Of a stretch of DNA of 47,486 bases, positions 32,955 through 44,516 are shown piece after piece (the stretch's first letter is position 1; every line of letters begins with the position of its first letter). Where the stretch lies: positions 1 to 47,486 of the forward strand of contig DYEX01000081.1 of NCBI GenBank assembly GCA_020725525.1, read 5' to 3'. The position numbers and the translations under genes are program-made. A model generated the notes under the pieces. That model searched no databases. It had not been told where the DNA came from and saw nothing but the letters and a program-made list of their open reading frames with translations. Source of the stretch: Desulfovirgula sp. (lineage in GTDB: Bacteria; Bacillota; Desulfotomaculia; Desulfotomaculales; Desulfovirgulaceae).

Positions 32955-33007
32955 TCTTTTTATAACCCCAAACATACAAAACTCTCTTTCCCGACAACAA
33001 TAGGTGC

Positions 33008-33036
33008 TTGTCAGCCTGGTTAATTTATGGTATATA
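33008..33036 (+). promoter_or_regulatory. Predicted promoter upstream of sat
   Basis: TTGTCA (33008-33013) and TATATA (33031-33036) with a 17-nt spacer. It would start transcription near 33043, giving a leader of about 440 nt before sat. A second -10-like TATAAT occurs at 33322-33327 without a clear -35. Confidence 0.5.
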
Positions 33037-33479
33037 AACAAGTGATAGCCCTCACCATCACAAACTGGGGTATAGAACAATGCCCGTACTGTATTATGGT
33101 TTTATGTCAAAAAAAGAAATTTAAGTTTTCTCATCCTGGGTAGCAGGAAGTTTCGTTTTTGTGTCGAATAGTACTTGTGTGAGGAGGAGGGGGGGTCTGG
33201 TGAGTCAAACCCCCGCCCTTTGCAATCCCCAGTTATATTAGCAGATAGCGGCTCAATTGATTAGCAAGTGGGCGACAATTTTCGCTGGAAAATAGTAGGA
33301 ATATGGCAGAGGTTTATTATATATAATGTTAGCGTGCTCATGTCTGGCGTGCTGGTGAAGGTTGTTTGTTTGGTTGCCATATTTCCAAATGGGAAGGGGA
33401 GGGGATAGTTAATAAAAGGAGGTTTGTTAAGCAAAAGTTAACGTTTTACAATCACATTTTTTAAGGAAGGAGAAGGGAA
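33037..33479 (+). other. Long leader region upstream of sat
   Basis: No gene is supported in this region. It holds a GC hairpin GGGGGT/ACCCCC (33191-33196 with 33209-33214) and a 9-bp inverted repeat AATATGGCA/TGCCATATT (33300-33308 with 33375-33383), and two ribosome-site-like AGGAGG segments, the last of which (AAGGAAGGAGAAGGG) serves sat. It may be a regulatory untranslated leader of the sulfate-reduction operon. Confidence 0.45.
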
Positions 33480-34742
33480 ATGACCTATATTGGCCATGGC
33501 GGCAAAGAAATTGTGGAAAGGGTTTTAGAACCTGAAAAAGCTGCTGAGGCGATTAAAGGTTTAACTCCGGTACCTATCCGTGGGCAAATAGCCAGGGAGA
33601 TCATAGATATTGCTTACGGGTTTTTCACGCCCCTGGAAGGATTTATGACCAGAGCAGACGTGGAAGGCGTTTGCAATGAAATGAAGCTCGCCAATGGTGT
33701 GCTGTGGCCTATCCCCATTGTCTTCGATATTTCCACCGAAGAAATCAACGAAAAAGGCATTAAAGAAGGCGACAAGCTGCTGTTGACCTACCAGGATAAG
33801 CCGATGGCCATCCTTGAAGTAGAAGAGATCTTCACCTATGACAAGCAGGAGATGGCCCAGAAGGTCTACGGCACAACGGAGGACAAACACCCCGGTGTTG
33901 CCAGGACATATAACTACAAGGATAAGTTTATCGGTGGAAAAATTACCCTTGTCAACCCGCCCAAGATTAACCCTCCTTTTGACGAATTCTTCTTCACTCC
34001 GAAACAGCTGAGGCAGAAGTTTGCCGAAAAAGGCTGGCAGAGAATCGTAGCCCATCAAACCAGAAACGTACCCCATACCGGACATGAGTGGCTCATGAAG
34101 GGCGCCTGGTTGTCTACTCACGGTGAACTGCCCGTGGAGAAGACCCTTACCGGCGTTCTGGTCAATGCCATTATCGGCGAGAAAAGAAAAGGCGACTACA
34201 TCGATGAGGCTATCGTTTTGTGCCATGATGTGTTGCGCAAAGCGGGCTACTTCAGGGAAGATGTACATTTGACCTCCATTACCCTCTGGGATATGCGCTA
34301 TGCCGGTCCCAAAGAGGCCGTTTTCCACGCCATTTTGAGGTCCAACCTCGGTTTGACCCACCACATGTTCGGCCGGGACCATGCCGGAGTGGGTACCTAT
34401 TATGACCCGTACGATGCCCACAGAATATTTGACCAGATCCCCGAAGGTGCATTGAACATCAAGCCAATCCGGGTGCTTGCCTGGTGGTACTGCCCCATCT
34501 GCGGAGAGGTAACCTATTCCGGGCTGTGTGGCCACAAGGAGCACAGTCAAAACTTCAGCGGTACTTTGATCAGGAGCATCATCCAGGATGGTGTGAAGCC
34601 ACCTCGCCTGATCTTCAGACCCGAAGTATTTGACCTCATCATGGAATGTGCGGAAAAGTACGGTTTTGGTTCTGCTTTTGTCACAGACAGGTACTTGAAG
34701 GAGCGGAATCCCGTCTTTAGCCTTCCCGATATGAAGTACTAG
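33480..34742 (+). CDS. sat: Dissimilatory sulfate adenylyltransferase (ATP sulfurylase)
   Basis: Activates sulfate with ATP to APS and pyrophosphate in the cytosol, the first step of sulfate reduction. The 420-aa protein has QTRNVPHTGHE (about residues 193-203), the sulfate-reducer version of the QTRNPxHxxHE motif with His199 and His202, GRDHAGVG in the second half, and CPICGEVTYSGLCGH (about 340-355), a metal-binding Cys/His cluster seen in dissimilatory enzymes. AAGGAAGGAG precedes the ATG. It is followed 16 nt later by a 96-aa gene, then aprBA, in one apparent operon. Confidence 0.97.
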   Translation: MTYIGHGGKEIVERVLEPEKAAEAIKGLTPVPIRGQIAREIIDIAYGFFTPLEGFMTRADVEGVCNEMKLANGVLWPIPIVFDISTEEINEKGIKEGDKLLLTYQDKPMAILEVEEIFTYDKQEMAQKVYGTTEDKHPGVARTYNYKDKFIGGKITLVNPPKINPPFDEFFFTPKQLRQKFAEKGWQRIVAHQTRNVPHTGHEWLMKGAWLSTHGELPVEKTLTGVLVNAIIGEKRKGDYIDEAIVLCHDVLRKAGYFREDVHLTSITLWDMRYAGPKEAVFHAILRSNLGLTHHMFGRDHAGVGTYYDPYDAHRIFDQIPEGALNIKPIRVLAWWYCPICGEVTYSGLCGHKEHSQNFSGTLIRSIIQDGVKPPRLIFRPEVFDLIMECAEKYGFGSAFVTDRYLKERNPVFSLPDMKY

Positions 34743-34758
34743 TTTAGGAGGTGGCGAG

Positions 34759-35049
34759 ATGTCCATTACCATTAATATCTGGATTAACGAGGAGAGGTAT
34801 GAGAAGCTGCAGAAAGCCGGTCTGGCCAGCATGGCCGAAGAGGCACTGGCCGGCCTGAAGGTAATTAAGGTCCCCTGCACCGAGGAGCAAAAGGACAAAG
34901 TGTTAAAAGTCTTCCCCACGGCTAAATATGACTCTGCCACCACCAGGAGCATCGAGCTGCTGCCCAGAGAAGTAAAGGACAAGATCTTTGACCTGGTAGT
35001 GGAAAAGCAGAGCATGGACGTGATGGAGGATTTCCTCAAAAACTACTAG
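34759..35049 (+). CDS. 96-aa protein of unknown function between sat and aprB
   Basis: Soluble acidic protein with no cysteine cluster and no membrane segment; starts MSITINIWINEERYEKLQKA, has a Lys/Glu-rich helical body and ends VMEDFLKNY. It has TAGGAGG with 8-nt spacing and lies in tight order after sat and before aprB. I do not recognise a family. Position suggests a role with ATP sulfurylase or APS reductase (assembly, regulation or bringing the two enzymes together), but that is inference. It contains one Cys (KVPCTEE). Confidence 0.75.
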   Translation: MSITINIWINEERYEKLQKAGLASMAEEALAGLKVIKVPCTEEQKDKVLKVFPTAKYDSATTRSIELLPREVKDKIFDLVVEKQSMDVMEDFLKNY

Positions 35050-35154
35050 TTTAGAAAACCAGCCTTAAAGGGAGGTGGGTAGCGGGAAGAGGGAGGGGAG
35101 CTATCTTTCCAGCGTGCCTAATAAAATTAAAAATTTATGAGGAGGTTAGAGTTT

Positions 35155-35595
35155 ATGCCAAGTTTTGTAATTGCTGAAAAATGTGACGGCTGCAAAGGGC
35201 AGGACAAAACCGCTTGCATGTACATTTGTCCTAACGACCTGATGGTCCTGGATAAAGAAAGAATGAAGGCCTACAACCGGGATCCGCAAATGTGCTGGGA
35301 GTGTGCATGCTGCGTGAAGATTTGCCCGCAGCAGGCCATGGACCTGAGGGGTTACGCCGACTTTATGCCGCTCGGTGCCAGTACTGTTCCTTTGCGTGGT
35401 TCCGAGGACATCATGTGGACAATTAAGTTCCGCAACGGCACCATCAAGCGCTTCAAGTTCCCCATCCGGACCACGCCGGAAGGTTCCATTGTACCAGATG
35501 GTGGTTTTGAAACCGGCACTGACGATTTGAAGAGCCCGGTGCTCTTTACCGAGCCTGCTTCTCTGGGCCGTGAAGTTGCTACTCTCAAGAAGTAG
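35155..35595 (+). CDS. aprB: Adenylylsulfate reductase beta subunit AprB
   Basis: 146-aa iron-sulfur subunit of APS reductase. It has two [4Fe-4S] ferredoxin clusters (CDGCKGQDKTACMYICP and CWECACCVKICP) followed by the AprB-specific beta-rich tail (about residues 65-146). ATG 35155 follows GAGGAGG at 7-nt spacing. Passes electrons from the Qmo complex to the FAD of AprA. Followed by aprA 33 nt downstream. Codon choice (many C-ending codons) fits high expression. Confidence 0.97.
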   Translation: MPSFVIAEKCDGCKGQDKTACMYICPNDLMVLDKERMKAYNRDPQMCWECACCVKICPQQAMDLRGYADFMPLGASTVPLRGSEDIMWTIKFRNGTIKRFKFPIRTTPEGSIVPDGGFETGTDDLKSPVLFTEPASLGREVATLKK

Positions 35596-35628
35596 CAGAG
35601 CAAAATTATGGATGAGGAGGTTGAACAC

Positions 35629-37518
35629 ATGCCAGCTAATTTTGAAACCGTAGTGGTTGATACTGATTTATTGATTATCGGGGGCGGCATGTCCGCGTGT
35701 GGGGCTGCCGTAGAGGCTGCCTACTGGGCTAAGAAGCACGGTCTCAAAGTAACCGTGGTAGATAAAGCTGCCATGGACCGCAGCGGCGCCGTAGCACAGG
35801 GTCTTTCCGCCATCAACCAGTACCTGGGCTATGCGGAAGGTGAAAATACCCCCGAAGATTATGTCCGCTATGTAAAGCAAGACCTGATGGGCATCTCCCG
35901 CGACGACCTGGTCTACAGCATCGCCAGGCACGTCGACTCCACCGTGCACCTGTTTGAGAAGTGGGGTCTGCCCATTTGGAGAGACGAGAACGGCAAAGTG
36001 GTTCGTTCTGGCCGCTGGCAAATCATGATCAGCGGTGAGTCCTACAAGATTATCGTGGCAGAAGCTGCCAAGAACGCCCTCAAGGCACTGGCCGACAATG
36101 GCGAGATCTTCGAGCGTGTGTTCATCGTAGAGCCTCTGGTCAAGGACAATCGTATTGTGGGTGCTGTAGGTTTTAGCGTACGGGAGAACAAGTTCTTTGT
36201 GTTTAAGGCTAAGGCTGTCCTCACCTGTCTGGGTGGAGCTGTGCACGTCTTCCGTCCGCGGTCCACTGGTGAGGGTCTGGGACGTTCCTGGTATCCGCCC
36301 TTCAACACCGGTTCTTCCGCCTACTTCACCATGAAAGCCGGCGCCGAGATGACCTGCCAGGAAGTGCGCTTCATCCCGGTGCGCTTTAAGGATGCATACG
36401 GTCCGGTTGGTGCATGGTTCCTGCTCTTCAAGTCCGAAGCGAAGAACGCCTTCGGTGAGAACTACATGGTTACCCGGGTGGACGAACTGAAGAAGTGGGC
36501 TCCCTACGGCCTGACCAAGCCCATCCCCGCCAACCTGCGTAACCACCTGGGCCTCATGGATGAGCGTGAAGGCAAGGGTCCCATTTATATGCACACGGAA
36601 GAGGCCATTGCCAAGCTGGTTCAGGAGTTCCCCGATGAAAAAGTGCGCAAGAAGAAGATGAAGGAACTCGAGTCCGAAGCCTGGGAAGACTTCCTCGACA
36701 TGACCATTGCGCAGGCTTTGCTGTGGGCTTCCCAGAACATCTTCCCTGAGGAGAAGCCTTCTGAGATTGCCGCCTGCGAGCCCTACTTCATCGGTTCGCA
36801 CTCCGGTGCTTCCGGCGCCTGGGTCAGCGGTCCCGAGGACCTGGCTCCTGCGGAGTATTTCTGGGGCTATGGCAACATGTCCACTGTGAAAGGTCTTTTC
36901 TGTGCCGGCGACGCTTCCGGTGCTTCCGCTCACAAGTTCTCCTCCGGTTCCTTCACGGAGGGCCGTATTGCCGCCAAGGAAGCCATCCGGTTCATCGTGG
37001 AGAACAACGAGGAGCCCGTGGTGGATATGGCCGAGGTGGAGGCCCTGAAGGCTCAACTCCTCAAGCCGCTGGATACCTTCGAGCAGTACAAGGGCATGAC
37101 CACCGACCCGGATGTGAACCCCAACTACATCCGTCCGAAGCAGTTCATGTTCCGCCTGCAGAAGATCATGGACGAATATGCCGGCGGTGTGTCCAAGTCC
37201 TTCACCACCAACAAGCAGCTTCTGGAGCGCGGCCTGGAACTGCTGGCCATGCTTAAGGAGGACGCCGATAAGCTGGCAGCGGAAAACCTGCACGAGCTTA
37301 TGAGGTGCTGGGAAAACGTCCACCGGATGTGGCAGGCTGAGGCTCACGTCAGGAGCGTGCTGTTCCGCGAAGAAACCAGGTGGCCCGGCTATTACATCAG
37401 GGCGGACTTCCCGAACATGGACGAGGAGAACTGGAAGTGCTTCGTCAACTGCCGGTGGGACCGCAACACCGGGCAGTGGGAAGTCTTCAAGCGCCCGATC
37501 ATCTCCATCATTGACTAA
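35629..37518 (+). CDS. aprA: Adenylylsulfate reductase alpha subunit AprA
   Basis: 629-aa FAD flavoprotein that reduces APS to sulfite and AMP. It starts with an FAD dinucleotide-binding IIGGGMSACGAAVEAA segment (about residues 15-30), includes the fumarate-reductase-like fold and ends in the AprA-specific C-terminal domain (about 480-629, CFVNCRWDRNTGQW near the end). ATG 35629 has GAGGAGG 8 nt upstream; an in-frame ATG 21 nt earlier is possible. Works as an alpha-beta unit with AprB. The coding strand has a strong C-ending codon preference. Followed by a hairpin and then qmoA. Confidence 0.97.
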   Translation: MPANFETVVVDTDLLIIGGGMSACGAAVEAAYWAKKHGLKVTVVDKAAMDRSGAVAQGLSAINQYLGYAEGENTPEDYVRYVKQDLMGISRDDLVYSIARHVDSTVHLFEKWGLPIWRDENGKVVRSGRWQIMISGESYKIIVAEAAKNALKALADNGEIFERVFIVEPLVKDNRIVGAVGFSVRENKFFVFKAKAVLTCLGGAVHVFRPRSTGEGLGRSWYPPFNTGSSAYFTMKAGAEMTCQEVRFIPVRFKDAYGPVGAWFLLFKSEAKNAFGENYMVTRVDELKKWAPYGLTKPIPANLRNHLGLMDEREGKGPIYMHTEEAIAKLVQEFPDEKVRKKKMKELESEAWEDFLDMTIAQALLWASQNIFPEEKPSEIAACEPYFIGSHSGASGAWVSGPEDLAPAEYFWGYGNMSTVKGLFCAGDASGASAHKFSSGSFTEGRIAAKEAIRFIVENNEEPVVDMAEVEALKAQLLKPLDTFEQYKGMTTDPDVNPNYIRPKQFMFRLQKIMDEYAGGVSKSFTTNKQLLERGLELLAMLKEDADKLAAENLHELMRCWENVHRMWQAEAHVRSVLFREETRWPGYYIRADFPNMDEENWKCFVNCRWDRNTGQWEVFKRPIISIID

Positions 37519-37563
37519 CCAATAGCCATATCAAACGGCTACCTTTTCTGCATATGTGATCAG

Positions 37564-37589
37564 AGCCGTGGCTGTTCGCGGCCACGGCT
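37564..37589 (+). terminator. Hairpin between aprA and qmoA
   Basis: AGCCGTGGC (37564-37572) pairs with GCCACGGCT (37581-37589). The following sequence TTAACCCTTATTTTT is only partly T-rich, so it may act as a partial terminator or as an RNA-processing/stability hairpin that lowers expression of qmoAB relative to aprBA. Confidence 0.55.
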
Positions 37590-37633
37590 TAACCCTTATT
37601 TTTCAAAAACTAAACTTGCGACGGTGATGAGAT

Positions 37634-38875
37634 ATGGGTAATAAGAGCATCCTGGTGGTTGGAGGGGGAATAAGCGGGTTAACTGCTGCTATTGAGGCTT
37701 CAGAGGTAGGCTATGAAGTCTTTATTATTGAGAAAAACCCTTACCTTGGCGGCAGGGTAGCCCAGATGAACCAATATTTCCCCAAGCTTTGCCCCCCGAA
37801 CTGCGGTTTGGAGATCAACTTCCGCAGGATAAAGAGCAATCCCAGAATCCGCTTCCTAACCCTGGCCGAGGTTACGGGAGTTTCCGGTCAGGAAGGGGAT
37901 TTTGAGGTTAAAGTAAAAATCCACCCCCGCTATGTCAATGAGAATTGTACCGCCTGCGGCAAGTGTGTAGAGGTGTGCCCGGAGGAAAGAAAGAATACTT
38001 TCAACTATGGTCTGGACAAAACCAGGGCCATTTATTTACCACACCTTTTTGCCTTCCCCATGAAGTATGTTATTGATGCGGCGGCCTGCTCGAAATGCAA
38101 TAAATGTGTCGAGGTATGCCCGGTTAATGCCGTCGATTTGAATATGGAGCCCAAGGAGATGACCTTAAGGGTTGGTTCCATTATCTGGGCTACAGGATGG
38201 AACCCCTATGATGCTTCCAGGATTGGTTATTACGGTTTTGGTCAGTATCAAAACGTCATTAACAACGTGATGCTGGAAAGGCTGGCCGCTTCCAATGGTC
38301 CCACCCAGGGCAAGATCCTGCGGCCCTCCGACGGCAAACCGGTAGAACGGGTGGCCTTTGTGCAGTGCGCCGGTTCCCGGGATGAGAATCACCTGCCCTA
38401 TTGTTCCGGTGTTTGTTGCCTGGCGTCCCTGAAGCAGGCCACCTATGTGCTCGAGCGCAATCCTGATGCCCAGGTTTATATTTACTTCATTGATATCCGG
38501 GCCCTGGGTAAGTTTGAGGACTTTTACGCGAAAGTAAAAGATAATGCGAATATTCATTTAATTAAAGGGAAGGCCGGAGATATCACTGAAGATCCCGCTA
38601 CAAAGGATCTGATTGTGGTGGTTGAAGACCAGGAAACCCAGAAATTAATGAAAGAGAAGTTCGACCTGGTCGTTCTGGCAACTGGTATGGCACCGGCGAC
38701 AAGAGAAGTCAAAGCACCTGCGGATTTAGTTTACGATGAGAATGGCTTTGTGGTCGGGGGTGCGCCTGGTATTTACAGCGCCGGCTGCGTGAGCAGGCCG
38801 ATGGATGTGGCTTCCTGTGTCGAGGATGCGACTGCCGCTGCCCTCAAGGCTATTCAATCGACGGTGGGGAGGTAA
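37634..38875 (+). CDS. qmoA: Quinone-interacting membrane-bound oxidoreductase subunit QmoA
   Basis: 413-aa HdrA-like flavoprotein. It has an N-terminal FAD motif VVGGGISGLTAAIEA (residues 7-21), the CPPNCGLEINFRR segment near residue 55 and two ferredoxin clusters (CTACGKCVEVCPEE about 110 and CSKCNKCVEVCPVNA about 155). QmoA links the membrane Qmo module with AprBA. GGTGATGAG precedes the ATG. It starts 115 nt after aprA and is followed without gap by qmoB (TAA then ATG). Confidence 0.93.
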   Translation: MGNKSILVVGGGISGLTAAIEASEVGYEVFIIEKNPYLGGRVAQMNQYFPKLCPPNCGLEINFRRIKSNPRIRFLTLAEVTGVSGQEGDFEVKVKIHPRYVNENCTACGKCVEVCPEERKNTFNYGLDKTRAIYLPHLFAFPMKYVIDAAACSKCNKCVEVCPVNAVDLNMEPKEMTLRVGSIIWATGWNPYDASRIGYYGFGQYQNVINNVMLERLAASNGPTQGKILRPSDGKPVERVAFVQCAGSRDENHLPYCSGVCCLASLKQATYVLERNPDAQVYIYFIDIRALGKFEDFYAKVKDNANIHLIKGKAGDITEDPATKDLIVVVEDQETQKLMKEKFDLVVLATGMAPATREVKAPADLVYDENGFVVGGAPGIYSAGCVSRPMDVASCVEDATAAALKAIQSTVGR

Positions 38876-41092
38876 ATGACGGTGGACAAAAAGCTGGCGG
38901 TTTATATATGCACCGGTTGTGGTATTGGGGATGCCCTGGACGTTGATGCTCTCTCGAAGGTAGCGACCAAAGAATACAAAGTACCGGTTTGTAAGTCCCA
39001 TCCCTTCCTTTGCGGTGCGGAAGGCGTTGAGCTGATTAAGCAGGACATGGAAGGGGAAGGGGTCAACACCATCGTTATTGCGGCCTGCTCCATGCGGGTG
39101 AACTACGATGTGTTTAATTTCCCCAACGCCATTGTGGAAAGGGTTAACCTGAGGGAGCAGGGGGTCTGGTGCCATCCGGCCAACGATGAAGATACCCAGA
39201 TGCTGGCAGAGGACAGCCTGCGTATGGGTATTGTCAAGGCCCAGCAATCGTCCCCGCCGGAACCTTTTCAGGCGGAAAACCTGTCCAAAACCGTCCTGGT
39301 GGTTGGCGGAGGCCTGGCCGGTTTGACGGCCGCAGCAGAAGCTGCCCGGGCCGGATATAAAACTGTGCTGGTGGAAAAGAACCCCTCCCTGGGCGGTTGG
39401 GTTACCAGGCTATACAAGCAGGTCGGCCTGAAGCCGCCTTATAGCGAACTTGAAGATGTTGATATCGCCCAGCGGGTTAAGGAAGTAGAAGAGAATCCCA
39501 ACATTACGGTATATAAGGGCGCGCAAATTGAAAAAATTTCCGGCGCCCCGGGCATGTTTGACGTTCAAATAAGGCAAAACGGCAACCTGGCTACCGAAAG
39601 GGTGGGTTCCATCGTCCTGGCTACCGGAGCGGTCGCCTACGATGCTACCAGGCTGGGCCATCTCGGTTTTGGCCGGTACCCCAACGTGGTTACCGGCGAG
39701 ATGTTTGAAGAAATGGCCGCCAGGGGTGAATTGAAACGTCCTTCCGACGGCAAGGAAGTAAAGAGCGTTGCATTCATTCTTTGTGCCGGTTCCCGGGATA
39801 AAGAGCATTTGCCCTACTGTTCGGCCATCTGCTGCACTGAATCCTTAAAGCAGGCACTTTATGTGAAGGAAAAGGATCCCGAGGCCACGGTATATATTTT
39901 CTATAAAGATATGCGGGCCGCGGGCAACTACGAGTTTCTGTACCAGCGCGTGCAAAAAGAAGGAGCCCTCTTCTTCAGGGGGGAAATTGCCGGCATAGAA
40001 GAAGACGGTGGAAGCATGGTAGTCGAATTCGATGATGTGCTGGTGGGCGACCGGATTAGAACGGAACCCATTGACCTGGTGGTACTGGCGACCGGCATGG
40101 TGCCCACCACTGCCATTGGGGAAAGGCTCGTTGTGCAGGCAGATGAGCAGGGCAAAGAATCCGAGCCGCCGGCGGATGAAATCATTAAGTCGAATATCCT
40201 GAACCTGGAATACCGGCAGGGTCCCGAACTGCCCACTTTGAAATACGGTTTTGCGGACTCGCACTTTATCTGCTTCCCTTATGAAACACGCCGGACAGGT
40301 ATTTACGCCGCCGGCAGCGTGCGGGCGCCCATGGATATTCCCTCAACCATCAAGGATGCTACCGGAGCCGTCCTCAAAGCCATCCAGTGCATTGAACTGA
40401 CGGCTGAAGGTTCAGCAGTGCACCCGCGGGTGTGGGATCTCTCCTACCCGGAATTCTTCATGCAGAGATGCACCCAGTGCAAGCGGTGCACCGTTGAGTG
40501 CCCCTTTGGTGCCATTAACGAGGATGAAAAGGCCAATCCGCTACCCAATCCCACCCGGTGCCGGCGTTGTGGTACCTGCATGGGTGCCTGTCCGGAGCGG
40601 ATCATTTCCTTCAAGAACTACTCGGTGCCCATGATCGGGAACATGGTGAAGGCCATCGAGGTGCCGGAAGAGGATGAAGAAAAACCGAGAATCGTCATTT
40701 TTGCCTGTGAAAACGACGCCTATCCGGCGCTGGATATGGCCGGCATCAATCGCCTGACCATCAGCCCGTGGGTACGGATAATTCCCGTGAGATGCCTTGG
40801 TTCCATGAACCTGATCTGGATTGCCGATGCCCTGTCCAAGGGTATTGACGGCATTCTGCTGCTGGGCTGCAAGCACGGCGAAGATTACCAGTGCCACTTC
40901 ATCAAGGGCAGTGAACTGGCCAGTTACCGCCTGTCCAAGATTTCGGAAACATTGAACCGCCTGGCCCTGGAATCCGACCGGGTGCGGATGGAACAGGTCG
41001 GTATTATGGATTACGACCGTATTCCTCAAATCATTGAGGACTTTGTCAGCAAGCTCGAGGAAGTCGGTCCCAACCCGTATAAAGGTTTTTAA
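38876..41092 (+). CDS. qmoB: Qmo complex subunit QmoB (HdrA-MvhD fusion)
   Basis: 738-aa flavoprotein fusing an HdrA-like FAD part (GGGLAGLTAAAEAARAG about 142-158), two [4Fe-4S] clusters (CTQCKRCTVECP and CRRCGTCMGACP, about 530-570) and a C-terminal MvhD/FrhD-like domain (about 600-738). Starts right after the qmoA stop. The MvhD-like tail is the part thought to carry a further Fe-S cluster, as in QmoB of sulfate reducers, which suits a link to soluble carriers as well. Followed by a 286-nt structured gap before the next Hdr-like gene. Confidence 0.93.
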   Translation: MTVDKKLAVYICTGCGIGDALDVDALSKVATKEYKVPVCKSHPFLCGAEGVELIKQDMEGEGVNTIVIAACSMRVNYDVFNFPNAIVERVNLREQGVWCHPANDEDTQMLAEDSLRMGIVKAQQSSPPEPFQAENLSKTVLVVGGGLAGLTAAAEAARAGYKTVLVEKNPSLGGWVTRLYKQVGLKPPYSELEDVDIAQRVKEVEENPNITVYKGAQIEKISGAPGMFDVQIRQNGNLATERVGSIVLATGAVAYDATRLGHLGFGRYPNVVTGEMFEEMAARGELKRPSDGKEVKSVAFILCAGSRDKEHLPYCSAICCTESLKQALYVKEKDPEATVYIFYKDMRAAGNYEFLYQRVQKEGALFFRGEIAGIEEDGGSMVVEFDDVLVGDRIRTEPIDLVVLATGMVPTTAIGERLVVQADEQGKESEPPADEIIKSNILNLEYRQGPELPTLKYGFADSHFICFPYETRRTGIYAAGSVRAPMDIPSTIKDATGAVLKAIQCIELTAEGSAVHPRVWDLSYPEFFMQRCTQCKRCTVECPFGAINEDEKANPLPNPTRCRRCGTCMGACPERIISFKNYSVPMIGNMVKAIEVPEEDEEKPRIVIFACENDAYPALDMAGINRLTISPWVRIIPVRCLGSMNLIWIADALSKGIDGILLLGCKHGEDYQCHFIKGSELASYRLSKISETLNRLALESDRVRMEQVGIMDYDRIPQIIEDFVSKLEEVGPNPYKGF

Positions 41093-41378
41093 AGAAAAGG
41101 CTGTCCTGTGTGGCTTGTCTTTAGTCACCACCGCGGGCTTCCAGTACTTATAGAAGTGAACCTTTTAAAAGGCACAGGGAGGGGGTTGCAACCCCTCTCG
41201 CCGGTTGCCCTCCGGTGAAACAGTTGCCGGTGGGCAACCGCGCCAGGTCCGCTGCCGCTACATGCAAAAGAGCGAGTACCGTGCTGGTTGTGCAAAAAGG
41301 CCGCGGGGTGGCACCCGGGTGGGGATGTGTGGGCAAGCCTTTTTTCCAATACCAATGCCAAAGGGGTTTTAAAGGATT
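41093..41378 (+). other. Structured intergenic region between qmoB and the HdrD-like gene
   Basis: No gene is supported. Two palindromic elements lie here: a GGGG-TTGCAA-CCCC palindrome (41180-41196) and a 9-bp inverted repeat CGGTTGCCC/GGGCAACCG (41202-41210 with 41232-41240), and a small palindrome CCTTTTAAAAGG (41161-41172). No T-run follows, so a terminator is unlikely; an RNA element or internal promoter region is possible. Confidence 0.5.
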
Positions 41379-42551
41379 ATGGAAGCAAAAGAGATTTCTT
41401 TAGAGATGAAAGAATATCTTGTAGCAGCCGGAGCGCAAACCCTCGATCATTGCATGCAATGTGGGCTCTGTTCTGCCCTGTGCCCGTGGCGCATGGTTTC
41501 GGGGCATATCAGTGAAGTCTTTTATATTCGTAAAATGCAGCGTTTGGGTCAGCTCGGCCTGGAGGGTTTTGACACGGAGGAGGTACTTTTTGCCTGCACC
41601 ACCTGCGGTATATGTCAGCTGAACTGCCCCCGGCAGGTGAAGATAATCGAAAACGTACGGTCCATGCGGAGCACTACCGTAGAGGCCGGGTTCGTGCCGG
41701 CCCCTGTGCGGTCTGTGGTGGGCAGCCTGCATGCCAACGGCAACCCCTGGTCCGGGCCCCGGGAAAAGCGCATGGACTGGCAACAAGGGGTAGAAGTACC
41801 TGCCTTCTCACCTGATACGGAATACCTCCTCTTTGTGTGCTGCACTTCCTGTTACGATCCCCGCAGTCAGAGGATCGCCAGGAGCGTGGTGGATATCTTG
41901 AAGAAGGGGGGAGTAAATTTCGGGGTTATAGGTGAGGAGGAAAGCTGCTGCGGGGAGACAGTTCGTAAGATTGGTGATGAGGAGTTATTCAAAAAACTGG
42001 CTGAATCAAATATTAAACTTTTTAAGGAAAAGGGAGTAAAGAAGATCATCACCACTTCCCCCCACTGCCTGTATACTTTTAAGAATGAATACCCCGAGTT
42101 GGGCGGCGAATTTGAGGTGATACATTACACCCAGGTGGTTGCCGGGCTGGTAGAGGAAGGTAAGCTTGTTCCGAACGTTCCACTGGGTAAAAAAGTGGCG
42201 TACCACGATCCCTGCTACCTGGGGCGTCACAATGAAATCTTTGAAGCGCCACGTACTTTGCTCAAGGCCATTCCCGGCACAGAACTGATTGAACTCAGCC
42301 GTGCAAGGGAAAGAAGCCTTTGTTGTGCCGGCGGCGGTGGCCGGTTGTGGGCGGAAGTACCCAGGGGGGAGCGGTTTGGTGAATTAAGGGTTTTAGATGC
42401 CGAGGCAAAAAACGCCAATATTCTGGCTACGGCCTGCCCTTACTGTGTGATTATGCTTGAAGCAGATTGCCTGGCTTTAGACAAACAGGAAAAAATCAAA
42501 GTGATGGAAATTTCCGAGCTCCTGAGCGCATCAATGGGGAGGGAGAGCTAA
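41379..42551 (+). CDS. HdrD-like heterodisulfide-reductase-type subunit (two CCG domains)
   Basis: 390-aa soluble iron-sulfur protein with two ferredoxin clusters (C25-C36 CMQCGLCSALCP and C73-C83 CTTCGICQLNC) and two CCG domains (about residues 150-235 and 275-360). The second CCG domain has a complete CC/CPYC set; the first has SPHC in place of CPxC. This is the arrangement of HdrD or of fused HdrC-HdrB. It should act as a partner of QmoAB in the place usually held by QmoC or HdrBC. Weak ribosome site AAAGGA. Ends 1 nt before the next gene's start codon. Confidence 0.85.
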   Translation: MEAKEISLEMKEYLVAAGAQTLDHCMQCGLCSALCPWRMVSGHISEVFYIRKMQRLGQLGLEGFDTEEVLFACTTCGICQLNCPRQVKIIENVRSMRSTTVEAGFVPAPVRSVVGSLHANGNPWSGPREKRMDWQQGVEVPAFSPDTEYLLFVCCTSCYDPRSQRIARSVVDILKKGGVNFGVIGEEESCCGETVRKIGDEELFKKLAESNIKLFKEKGVKKIITTSPHCLYTFKNEYPELGGEFEVIHYTQVVAGLVEEGKLVPNVPLGKKVAYHDPCYLGRHNEIFEAPRTLLKAIPGTELIELSRARERSLCCAGGGGRLWAEVPRGERFGELRVLDAEAKNANILATACPYCVIMLEADCLALDKQEKIKVMEISELLSASMGRES

Positions 42552-43697
42552 TTGGTTACAGTAAACCCTCATTTTGCCAAAAAACTGCAGAAGTTCGGGG
42601 CTAAAACTGCCTCGGAGTGTTTTAGCTGCGGAACCTGCACAGCCGTTTGTCCCCTGGTAACGGATGAGGCACAATTTCCGCGGAGATTTATGCGGTATGT
42701 GCAGTTGGGCCTGGAGGAGAAGATCAAACATTCCATAGAGCCATGGCTTTGTTATTACTGCGGGGATTGCCAGAAAAACTGTCCGAGGAAGGCCGATCCG
42801 GGCGAGTTAATGATGTCGCTGCGGCGGTACCTGACGTCCGTTTACGACTGGACCGGTCTTTCACGGAAGCTTTACACGTCTATGGCATGGAAAGTGCTCT
42901 CGGTGGGTCTTCTCTTCTTTGCCACCCTGGCCGTTGTCTACAGTTTCAGCGGCGAAATGGTTACCGAGAGGGTGGAGCTGGAGACATTTGCTCCCGCACA
43001 CATTGTTCACTCTGTAGGCTACGTTTTTGGTGCGGTCCTGGCCTTTTTACTGCTTTCCAATGTTTACCGTATGTACAGGTTCGTCATGGGTCCCTATGCG
43101 GCCGGCATCCCGTTATCCGTGTACATCCAGGAGCTGGGTACCCTTATTGTGCATTTTGCTACGCAGGCGAGGATGCGTCTCTGCACCAATAAGTCGCGCT
43201 GGTTGAGGCACTTCCTCATCATGAGCGGTTACTTTGTGGCTTTCATGCTGGTGAACATCGATGTTGTCACCAGGTGGTCTTTGACCAACGAACCGCCCAT
43301 GTGGTGGCACCCGGGTAAGTTGCTCTGGAGTTACGCCTCTATTGCCATGCTGTACGCCACTACTGAGGCCATTATTGGGCGCTTAAGCAAGAAAGAGCCA
43401 ATTCACCAGTATTCCCATTCCACCGACTGGATGTTCCTGATCCTGCTCTGGTTTACAGTTTTCACGGGGTTACTCATGCGTATTTTCATGGAACTGGGCA
43501 TGCCTTTGCCGACCTATCATACCTTTGCCCTTCACCTGGCTTTCACGGTACCTCTTCTGGGTCTGGAGGTTCCCTTTACCAAGTGGTCTCACCTGGCCTA
43601 CCGGCCCTTCGCCCTCTACTTCCTCCGTTTAAGGGAAAGAGCCCTGGAAATGCAACGGTCCAAAGGTGAAATATCCCAGGTGGGAGTCAGCGGTTAA
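42552..43697 (+). CDS. QmoC-like membrane subunit (HdrC-type ferredoxin fused to cytochrome b)
   Basis: 381-aa membrane protein. The N-terminal domain has two ferredoxin clusters (CFSCGTCTAVCP, residues 23-34, and CYYCGDCQKNCP, 67-78), and the remainder has about five or six membrane helices (about 112-130, 152-172, 217-236, 255-275, 292-310, 325-342) with candidate heme-b histidines at 150, 153, 220, 289, 323 and 328. This is the layout of QmoC (HdrC plus NarI/HdrE-type cytochrome b). TTG start immediately after the previous stop, GGGAGG upstream. It should take electrons from menaquinol. Confidence 0.85.
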   Translation: MVTVNPHFAKKLQKFGAKTASECFSCGTCTAVCPLVTDEAQFPRRFMRYVQLGLEEKIKHSIEPWLCYYCGDCQKNCPRKADPGELMMSLRRYLTSVYDWTGLSRKLYTSMAWKVLSVGLLFFATLAVVYSFSGEMVTERVELETFAPAHIVHSVGYVFGAVLAFLLLSNVYRMYRFVMGPYAAGIPLSVYIQELGTLIVHFATQARMRLCTNKSRWLRHFLIMSGYFVAFMLVNIDVVTRWSLTNEPPMWWHPGKLLWSYASIAMLYATTEAIIGRLSKKEPIHQYSHSTDWMFLILLWFTVFTGLLMRIFMELGMPLPTYHTFALHLAFTVPLLGLEVPFTKWSHLAYRPFALYFLRLRERALEMQRSKGEISQVGVSG

Positions 43698-43718
43698 CTG
43701 TCCAAAACGGTTGGTAAG

Positions 43719-43748
43719 AAAAGGACCCCGGGAAAGGGTCCTTTTTAC
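43719..43748 (+). terminator. Intrinsic terminator after the qmo block
   Basis: AAAAGGACCC (43719-43728) pairs with GGGTCCTTTT (43736-43745), then T. It is bidirectional, lying between the QmoC-like gene and the convergent minus-strand membrane protein gene. Confidence 0.9.
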
Positions 43749-43762
43749 TATGCCTTTTTCAG

Positions 43763-44377
43763 TTAAACGTCTATGGTTCTGCCCGGCCATTCCTGCCGTT
43801 TTTCGTAATACTGCACGGCCCGCCTGCCCATGGCCACGGCCATGAAATAATTCACCCCGCCGGCCAGCAACAAACCTAAAAGAGGGATAATGCGCACCAG
43901 GCTCGAACGGGCGGTTGACCGCACACCCAATGAGAGAAGCGTGCGTTCCATCAGGGCAGTGAAGGCTTCCCTGGAAAGCTGGGTAACGGCGGCCCGGGAG
44001 AGACTGTTTCCCACGCTCCCTATCCCTGCGGCAAAAACGAAGGCCCAAAAGGCCTCCCGCCGGTAACGGTAGCCGGTAAGGTCTTTATTGTAAATGGCGG
44101 CTACTTCGAGAACCATGCGGCCCAGCAGGTAGGTAAGAAGGGTTACGTCAAGGGCCACTCCTCCCAGAAGGGCCAGCAATGTTCCCAGCCCGGGCAATAC
44201 CGCCGGCAGGGCAGTGAGGATTCCTACCAGGGCGCATTGCCAGGCCCTCTCCTGAATGATTTTCATGGCCAGTTCCCGGGCGGACAGGCCCGGAGAGGTT
44301 TCCTTCAGCCTTTTTATTTTTAGCTCAATTTCCTCGGCCCGGGGTGAGGCAAAAGGGTTAAAGCCCGGCACGGCCAT
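43763..44377 (-). CDS. EcsC-like membrane protein
   Basis: 204-aa protein with a short charged N-terminus, then hydrophobic stretches (about residues 49-88, 112-125 and 160-182) and polar C-terminus; the pattern fits the EcsC/DUF697-like family, whose role is unclear. The order of RAWQCALVGILTALPAVLPG and GGVALDVTLLTYLLGRM is typical. ATG with GGGAGG upstream. Convergent with the qmo block and not obviously linked to it. Confidence 0.65.
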   Translation of the reverse strand: MAVPGFNPFASPRAEEIELKIKRLKETSPGLSARELAMKIIQERAWQCALVGILTALPAVLPGLGTLLALLGGVALDVTLLTYLLGRMVLEVAAIYNKDLTGYRYRREAFWAFVFAAGIGSVGNSLSRAAVTQLSREAFTALMERTLLSLGVRSTARSSLVRIIPLLGLLLAGGVNYFMAVAMGRRAVQYYEKRQEWPGRTIDV

Positions 44378-44476
44378 TGCCTCCCTTTTTTAGCTCCAGT
44401 ATGCCATATCCACCGGCACCGGTCAAGAAGTTGAAACATCGAGCAGTGATGCAGCGCCAGGCCGTCACCCGGAGTA

Positions 44477-44516
44477 AAAACACGCCCGCCCGGAATGTTG
44501 TTCTGGGCGGGCGCGG
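44477..44516 (-). terminator. Intrinsic terminator after the SPW-like gene
   Basis: On the minus strand GCCCGCCC and GGGCGGGC form a GC-rich stem followed by GTGTTTTTAC. It lies after the SPW-like gene stop at 44529. Confidence 0.75.

Follow-up and report, generated by a model that had tools for sequence, protein, structure and literature searches.

How does a sulfate reducer power the reduction of adenosine 5'-phosphosulfate (APS)? Menaquinol as the driving donor of APS reductase poses an energetic problem, since this step is expected to run uphill, and confurcation with a second donor is proposed in the section of PMC10553843 that treats it. The question is raised again by the window analyzed here, i.e., the whole stretch of 47,486 nucleotides from contig DYEX01000081.1 (assembly GCA_020725525.1, Desulfovirgula sp.). 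In this window, the genes of APS reductase (aprBA) and of the QmoAB pair are followed by one gene for an HdrD-like protein and one for a QmoC-like membrane protein. At the level of genes, two known Qmo arms are combined here in an arrangement that is real and conserved but has received little notice. By encoding a soluble-carrier arm in addition to the quinone arm of a single QmoAB pair, the locus provides a candidate for the second entry point of electrons, and this in cultivated, non-pathogenic bacteria. Having both alternative electron-feeding parts in a single cluster, where most relatives have only one of them, would make the long-standing question of how sulfate reduction is powered testable.

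Composite loci in the class

On the plus strand, the gene order reads sat-DUF6955-aprBA-qmoAB-hdrD-qmoC (Table 1). A first-pass annotation, made from the letters of the window, had proposed that the HdrD-like and the QmoC-like gene belong to a composite set behind qmoAB. The set is real, and coordinates and reading frames of both genes were confirmed. The QmoC-like gene has a TTG start right after the stop codon of the HdrD-like gene (0 bp), preceded by a purine-rich stretch.

The comparison of gene order in relatives, named by the same annotation as a check, was based on a sample of 113 genomes of the class. AprA was found in 72 of them and QmoB (E ≤ 1e-150) in 71, and the neighborhood of qmoB was examined in all 71. 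Ten of these (the window, G061-G066, G068, G078, and G079) carry the composite QmoAB-HdrD-QmoC. They include 6/6 genomes of the window's genus, taken here as Desulfofundulus, eight of the nine genomes of its family, and both genomes of a genus in another family. The composite, conserved throughout the genus, is uncommon in the class as a whole. An assembly artefact is ruled out, because nine further class genomes show the arrangement, among them one that is a single contig of 3,601,386 bases. A plasmid relative was likewise rejected, as no match was obtained in plasmid sequences.

The remaining loci reveal QmoAB-QmoC without HdrD alongside (10/71), QmoAB-HdrD without QmoC (1/71), or partners of the HdrB(C) type (42/71), the latter with HdrCB behind qmoB in 35 genomes and HdrB, partly with HdrC, in front of sat in seven. 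By motif search, no partner gene was found in 8/71 genomes, G058 among them; hdrBC is printed for D. ruminis, to which G058 is ascribed, in the relevant part of PMC3569383. G005, where qmoC follows a qmoB truncated at the end of the contig, was left out of the 71. Each of the ten composite genomes yields a single QmoB match at the same threshold, and both arms therefore seem to share one QmoAB pair. In seven of the ten composites, hdrD and qmoC touch (0 bp).

Phylogeny of the Qmo subunits

A tree of QmoA plus QmoB was built from 41 chosen rows under LG+G4. The composite loci form one clade (support 100/99), which is sister to QmoABC of Ammonifex-type genomes, G009, and G110 (joint branch 100/100). 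The joint sister group of these two is QmoAB-HdrD of G071 and Desulfosporosinus-like genomes (100/98). A 63-row QmoB tree agrees with these groupings; it covers half (25/50) of the class loci that are of HdrCB type or unresolved, and all listed QmoABC loci (23/25) except L201 and L266, which are too short. In both trees the QmoABC genomes G111 and G112 are placed on the HdrCB side. Some of the sequences in the trees are identical or nearly so.

A single clade likewise comprises the HdrDs of Qmo loci (100/98 among rows with at least 33% identity to the window protein). After addition of Syntrophobacterales-type rows, its support by the Shimodaira-Hasegawa-like approximate likelihood ratio test (SH-aLRT) is 98, in a tree of 43 rows, 42 of them different, with at least 44% identity to the window protein, or at least 40% for the added loci. 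This clade also holds a displaced copy from G009, a long row of odd make-up whose placement is less sure. In G066, HdrD and QmoAB fall with Desulfofundulus, but QmoC (L134, 11691-12839) falls with those of G078 and G079 (93/84); QmoC was probably swapped within the composite of this genome. Taken together, the branching would be consistent with an order in which QmoAB-HdrD came first, QmoC was gained, and HdrD was lost again in the Ammonifex line.

Relatives outside the class

Among 398 genomes of a larger phylum, QmoB (E ≤ 1e-200) is present in 16, two of which lie outside the class. These two Desulfosporosinus-like genomes contain QmoAB-HdrD twice each, one copy having its qmoB split into two frames, and a QmoC-like match at E ≤ 1e-25 occurs in none of the 45 genomes of the Desulfosporosinus-like family. 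We also considered six Syntrophobacterales-type genomes picked for holding qmoB-qmoC, of which four are titled Syntrophobacteraceae, one Syntrophobacterales, and one Deltaproteobacteria, the last grouping with the others. All six contain a Qmo-type HdrD, too (62-67% identity), with both arms at separate loci; in five of them HdrD follows a different qmoB on a separate contig, and the sixth locus is cut by the contig end. These genomes are metagenome-assembled, so that contamination is possible. Their QmoC sits in another part of the QmoC tree.

Our listing of QmoC relatives comprises the best 80 of 558 matches and is no census. It includes metagenome-assembled genomes (MAGs) of Archaeoglobales (L211, L212, L213, and L215) with QmoC-like proteins 61-71% identical to that of the window. 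The genes adjoin HdrA-like genes, with no aprBA in the examined stretch, and in L212 an HdrD-like gene follows behind. In the QmoC tree these proteins are sister to the Desulfofundulus-Ammonifex group, which looks like an inter-domain transfer. Six QmoABC loci from deltaproteobacterial MAGs among the matches listed (L247, L275, L277, L278, L279, and L281) have a gene of about 570 amino acids between aprA and qmoA. It reads as an electron-transfer flavoprotein (ETF)-quinone oxidoreductase flavoprotein, the family name being given by eye, and points to a possible link between ETF and Qmo.

The HdrD-like protein

The HdrD-like protein starts with an HdrC-type 2x[4Fe-4S] domain, which matches HdrC of the solved HdrABC at 2e-17, and continues with two CCG domains, as the first reading of the window had it (PF02754 in two stretches); these are of EtfD type. 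Its nearest solved relative by sequence is mycobacterial EtfD (4.3e-67). The top fold match of its structural model is EtfD of M. smegmatis (template modelling score 0.75, E 1.1e-25, 36% identity), and the CCG part of the model is mostly confident. The sole hydrophobic stretch, residues 348-366, lies inside CCG domain 2; there is no fused membrane heme domain.

According to the cluster description in PMC13083937, the second CCG cluster of EtfD is bound by five cysteines and His583 and is hence non-catalytic, while the first CCG domain holds a linear [3Fe-4S] cluster. By alignment, the window protein has the entire ligand set of the second cluster, i.e., C279, C315, C316, C353, and C356 together with H229, the residue that aligns with H583. 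Capped by H229, the second CCG cluster would be non-catalytic. The ligand set of the linear cluster is incomplete: C155, C190, and C230 are present, C581 of EtfD is replaced by Ser227, and C191 stands where EtfD has threonine (T539) and Hdr has cysteine. The motif SPHC in the first CCG domain (S227, H229, C230) had been read as the loss of one cysteine, with which only one canonical CCG cluster may form. The loss itself is there, but it is no special defect: because 43/43 homologs compared carry the same motif, it is a family feature.

A catalytic HdrB or HdrD has two complete five-cysteine CCG motifs and no capping histidine, a pattern that is broken here by S227 and H229. HdrB of HdrCB-type loci has a complete CxxC in both CCG domains in 42/42 loci where HdrB was found, a count that covers only proteins of 230-340 amino acids with at least one CCG-type motif. 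In addition, an extra cysteine, C158, occurs in the first CCG domain of 21/21 HdrDs of Qmo loci (with L303, whose contig ends there, counted by kinship) versus 1/22 others, the G009 copy; in 19 of the remaining 21 HdrDs the position is alanine. As a guess, C158 might be a replacement cluster ligand.

Because the ligands of HdrD are EtfD-like and the motifs of HdrB are complete, the two kinds of CCG partner of Qmo seem to differ in their chemistry. For the HdrD arm, a role as an electron wire that leads to a soluble protein (ETF perhaps) is accordingly more likely than disulfide reduction. The assumption of a catalytic, disulfide-type subunit, made in the first-pass annotation, is weakened by the equivalence of H229 and H583, by the missing cysteine of domain 1, and by the contrast to HdrB. 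With cluster ligands that apparently differ, HdrCB and HdrD should not be treated as equivalents.

As for ETF, the window's own genome encodes two etfAB-like pairs (four matches). Four HdrD loci outside Qmo clusters were examined, with gene names of neighbors taken from sequence reading and no family search, and those of G009 and G057 lie among acyl-CoA genes. The displaced copy of G009 is located away from the QmoABC locus of this genome, beside genes read as EtfA-like and acyl-CoA genes.

The QmoC-like protein and the QmoAB core

An HdrC-type 2x[4Fe-4S] dicluster domain, which matches HdrC of the solved HdrABC at 6.7e-15, and a subsequent membrane part constitute the QmoC-like protein. The fused HdrC-type/cytochrome b architecture suggested by the first-pass annotation is thereby supported, with a qmoC family match of 190 bits. 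Four conserved histidines of the membrane part (220, 289, 328, and 347) are all invariant in 18 rows; in a 23-row alignment H220, H328, and H347 are invariant and H289 is kept in at least 90%. These four residues are candidate ligands of two b hemes. A fold search with the model returned only HdrC for the front part (best E 0.011).

QmoA and QmoB are both related to HdrA and are encoded beside aprBA. QmoA aligns with HdrA over its length; it has the flavin adenine dinucleotide (FAD) core, inserted ferredoxin domain included, but lacks the N- and C-terminal domains of HdrA. QmoB is composed of the N-terminal domain of HdrA, the FAD core without the inserted ferredoxin, a C-terminal ferredoxin, and the MvhD-like tail noted before, which PF02662 verifies. 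The motif C-x11-C-x3-CC, which we take to represent the cluster of the thioredoxin-reductase domain, is kept in both proteins, aligned with HdrA. In HdrA, the branch to HdrBC passes through the thioredoxin-reductase-domain cluster, according to the part of PMC9012536 that deals with it. Since QmoA and QmoB each keep this HdrC-facing motif, it is plausible that QmoAB has two sites at which an HdrC-type domain could bind.

Proposed mechanism and rival explanations

We propose a Qmo-type donor of AprBA with two side arms, in which electrons from menaquinol (by way of QmoC) and from a soluble carrier (by way of HdrD) confurcate, and we hold this tentatively, its chances being somewhat short of even. 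QmoA and QmoB, which divide the domains of HdrA between them, would form the core of the donor. The HdrC domain of QmoC would dock on this core and link it to menaquinol via the b hemes. The HdrC domain of HdrD would dock on it, too, with the CCG domains acting as an EtfD-like wire to a soluble protein, perhaps ETF. Electrons of both origins would meet at the flavins of QmoAB and exit to AprBA. A more specific version appears unlikely as a whole: a four-subunit Qmo with QmoC and an EtfD-like HdrD on separate HdrC sites, which would pass electrons of beta-oxidation (through ETF or another flavoprotein) and of menaquinol to APS, and which would represent a surviving step between QmoAB-HdrD and QmoABC.

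Several observations weigh against this proposal. The gap between qmoB and hdrD measures 286 bp (60-417 bp in relatives) and holds two strong hairpins, so that hdrD-qmoC could be a separate transcription unit. Of the two trees suggested as a check in the first-pass annotation, that of HdrD unites the Qmo loci, but the composite QmoCs are not one clade and occupy two places, which indicates arms with partly separate histories. Of the 20 class genomes whose qmo locus includes QmoC, 10 have no HdrD next to it; the HdrD arm is thus dispensable for QmoABC in general. At the protein level, the QmoC-like score stays below the curated cut-off of 300 bits of NCBIfam NF038018. The same holds for 8/8 relatives scored (175-212 bits), and the label 'QmoC-like' is used because this model does not reach the lineage. 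The membrane part of the QmoC model gave no credible fold match, and residues 1-93 of the HdrD model, the HdrC domain, have a confidence under 50 and are unreliable. The ETF idea in particular is opposed by the other two HdrD loci outside Qmo clusters, G016 and G112, which lack acyl-CoA neighbors, by a family search of the window, which yielded no etf gene for the cluster, and by the placement in D. reducens, which is called unique to that species in the part of PMC4759654 concerned.

The main rival to a two-site complex is a single shared HdrC site. One operon would then serve two complexes, with QmoAB binding QmoC or HdrD, never both, as a switch of the electron source of APS reduction. Both arms start with an HdrC-type domain and could compete for one site, and both occur singly, as QmoAB-QmoC and QmoAB-HdrD in ten genomes and one genome of the class, respectively. 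Along this line, QmoAB-HdrD stands alone in both Desulfosporosinus-like genomes, with no QmoC match among 45 genomes of their family, and the arms lie at separate loci in all six Syntrophobacterales-type genomes, HdrD with its own qmoB in the five that show it. However, the touching genes in seven of the ten composites favor equal amounts of HdrD and QmoC, and with the HdrC-facing motif on QmoA as well as on QmoB two sites seem available; such a switch is possible but somewhat doubtful.

That HdrD is a catalytic disulfide reductase arm, acting on DsrC or a small thiol and coupling menaquinol, disulfide, and AprBA, we regard as quite improbable. Its two CCG domains would suit this role: of the five Hdr-type cysteines, only one is missing from domain 1, where C191 is kept, and none from domain 2. 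The marker C158 could serve as a stand-in ligand. On the other hand, the histidine that precedes the final cysteine in domain 1, constant among the homologs, aligns with the residue that makes the EtfD cluster non-catalytic, and HdrB of HdrCB loci retains two complete motifs throughout. HdrD might also be a bystander, encoded in the operon but serving another enzyme, with plain QmoABC as the complex. This is compatible with the ten class genomes in which QmoAB-QmoC has no adjoining HdrD, with G009, which keeps a Qmo-type HdrD relative by EtfA-like and acyl-CoA genes off its QmoABC locus, and with the wording of papers that, in the parts concerned, term the loci of D. kuznetsovii and D. salinus simply qmoABC. 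It becomes very improbable in view of the clade that the Qmo-locus HdrDs form together with their C158 (21 of the 22 proteins with this cysteine come from Qmo loci), and of the Desulfosporosinus-like genomes, where HdrD follows directly behind qmoB without QmoC.

Features of the locus

Table 1. Features of the apr-qmo region, with positions in the window
Feature	Position	Strand	Evidence
sat, ATP sulfurylase (420 aa)	33480..34742	+	NCBIfam sopT and PRK04149 above cut-off
DUF6955 protein (96 aa), between sat and aprB	34759..35049	+	PF22271 2.3e-35
aprB, APS reductase beta	35137..35595	+	TIGR02060 above cut-off
aprA, APS reductase alpha	35608..37518	+	TIGR02061 above cut-off
qmoA	37634..38875	+	alignment to HdrA of PDB entries; cysteine motifs
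qmoB	38876..41092	+	PF02662 at residues 606-731; HdrA alignments; cysteine motifs
two hairpins, qmoB-hdrD gap	41177..41240	+	fold z -4.2 for 41140-41260
HdrD-like gene (390 aa)	41379..42551	+	Fer4_8 dicluster domain; PF02754 4.2e-33 in 2 stretches
QmoC-like gene (381 aa)	42552..43697	+	NCBIfam qmoC match, nearly whole length, 6.5e-56
terminator-like hairpin behind qmoC	43718..43746	+	fold of 43715-43760, -16.1 kcal/mol, z -2.35

The hairpins in the gap between qmoB and hdrD are also found in four other Desulfofundulus genomes and, in a less similar form, in G066; in G061 they are cut short. Few pair changes are seen among relatives, and the outer pairs are broken in G066. An intrinsic terminator was rejected, as there is no T-run and the terminator scan lists none in the gap; so was a genomic repeat, as the 40-base core is present once in the genome. 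Three relatives have about 130 additional bases upstream of these hairpins, which presumably resemble an IS200/IS605 end. A promoter scan remained at chance level (8 found versus 7.4 expected), and no known RNA family matched within 33000-44500. The hairpin behind qmoC likely marks the end of the operon; it is absent from the list of the simple terminator scan.

The position of the DUF6955 gene is kept in 8/8 other composite loci whose examined stretch reaches there. This small protein also follows sat in three Syntrophobacterales-type loci (L268, L301, and L302). The aprA gene of the window has 92.9% identity to that of G068, which belongs to another genus, and only 86-87% to those of five genomes of its own genus. 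In contrast, sat, qmoA, qmoB, hdrD, and qmoC have their nearest relatives in the own genus. The aprA of the window was likely replaced.

Comparison with known systems

In G062, which we take to be D. kuznetsovii, exactly one gene, hdrD, lies between qmoB and qmoC. The part of PMC4149029 on this subject gives Desku_1075, 1076, and 1078 as the complete qmoABC of D. kuznetsovii and also names Ammonifex and Desulfovirgula, so that QmoC in Gram-positive sulfate reducers, which by the first-pass annotation are often described as having soluble HdrBC in its place, was already in print. The skipped Desku_1077 fits the HdrD gene. For Desulfofundulus, qmoABC is listed in PMC11206085 and PMC10540450, whose main text has no word beginning with hdr. 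Our literature search, which left supplements aside, yielded no text on HdrD and QmoC together on one QmoAB, nor on the HdrD gene of D. kuznetsovii; a figure may already show it.

Among the systems closest to the window is QmoABC, whose QmoC lineage in Ammonifex degensii is called type II in the part of PMC10504309 on Qmo types. The sat/aprBA neighborhood, QmoAB, and a QmoC in which an HdrC domain is combined with a membrane part of heme-b type are common to both, and the window QmoC is 73-74% identical to two Ammonifex-genus copies beside qmoB among the best 80 of 558 matches. The window differs by the HdrD-like gene between qmoB and qmoC. QmoAB-HdrD of the Desulfosporosinus type (described in parts of PMC4148979 and PMC10504309) has an HdrD of the same clade right behind qmoB, 62-70% identical; those loci are without QmoC, whereas the window has the QmoC-like gene. 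QmoAB-HdrBC and QmoAB-HdrD are named as alternatives without QmoC in the same part of PMC10504309. QmoAB-HdrCB, found in most class genomes with qmoB, shares a CCG-type partner at the apr-qmo locus with the window. There, however, HdrC and HdrB are separate, both CCG motifs are complete, and QmoC is missing from the locus, whereas the window has a fused HdrD with SPHC.

Beyond Qmo, mycobacterial EtfD (PDB 9ojn; cluster description in PMC13083937) resembles the HdrD-like protein in its two ferredoxin-type clusters, its two CCG domains, and the equivalent of H583. In contrast to the window protein, EtfD has its own membrane heme domain, and the window HdrD has serine for C581, cysteine for T539, and C158 in addition. 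With the heterodisulfide reductases HdrDE and HdrABC, the window shares the HdrA-like core, HdrC, and CCG modules; unlike them, it has no complete pair of catalytic CCG motifs and is encoded together with AprBA.

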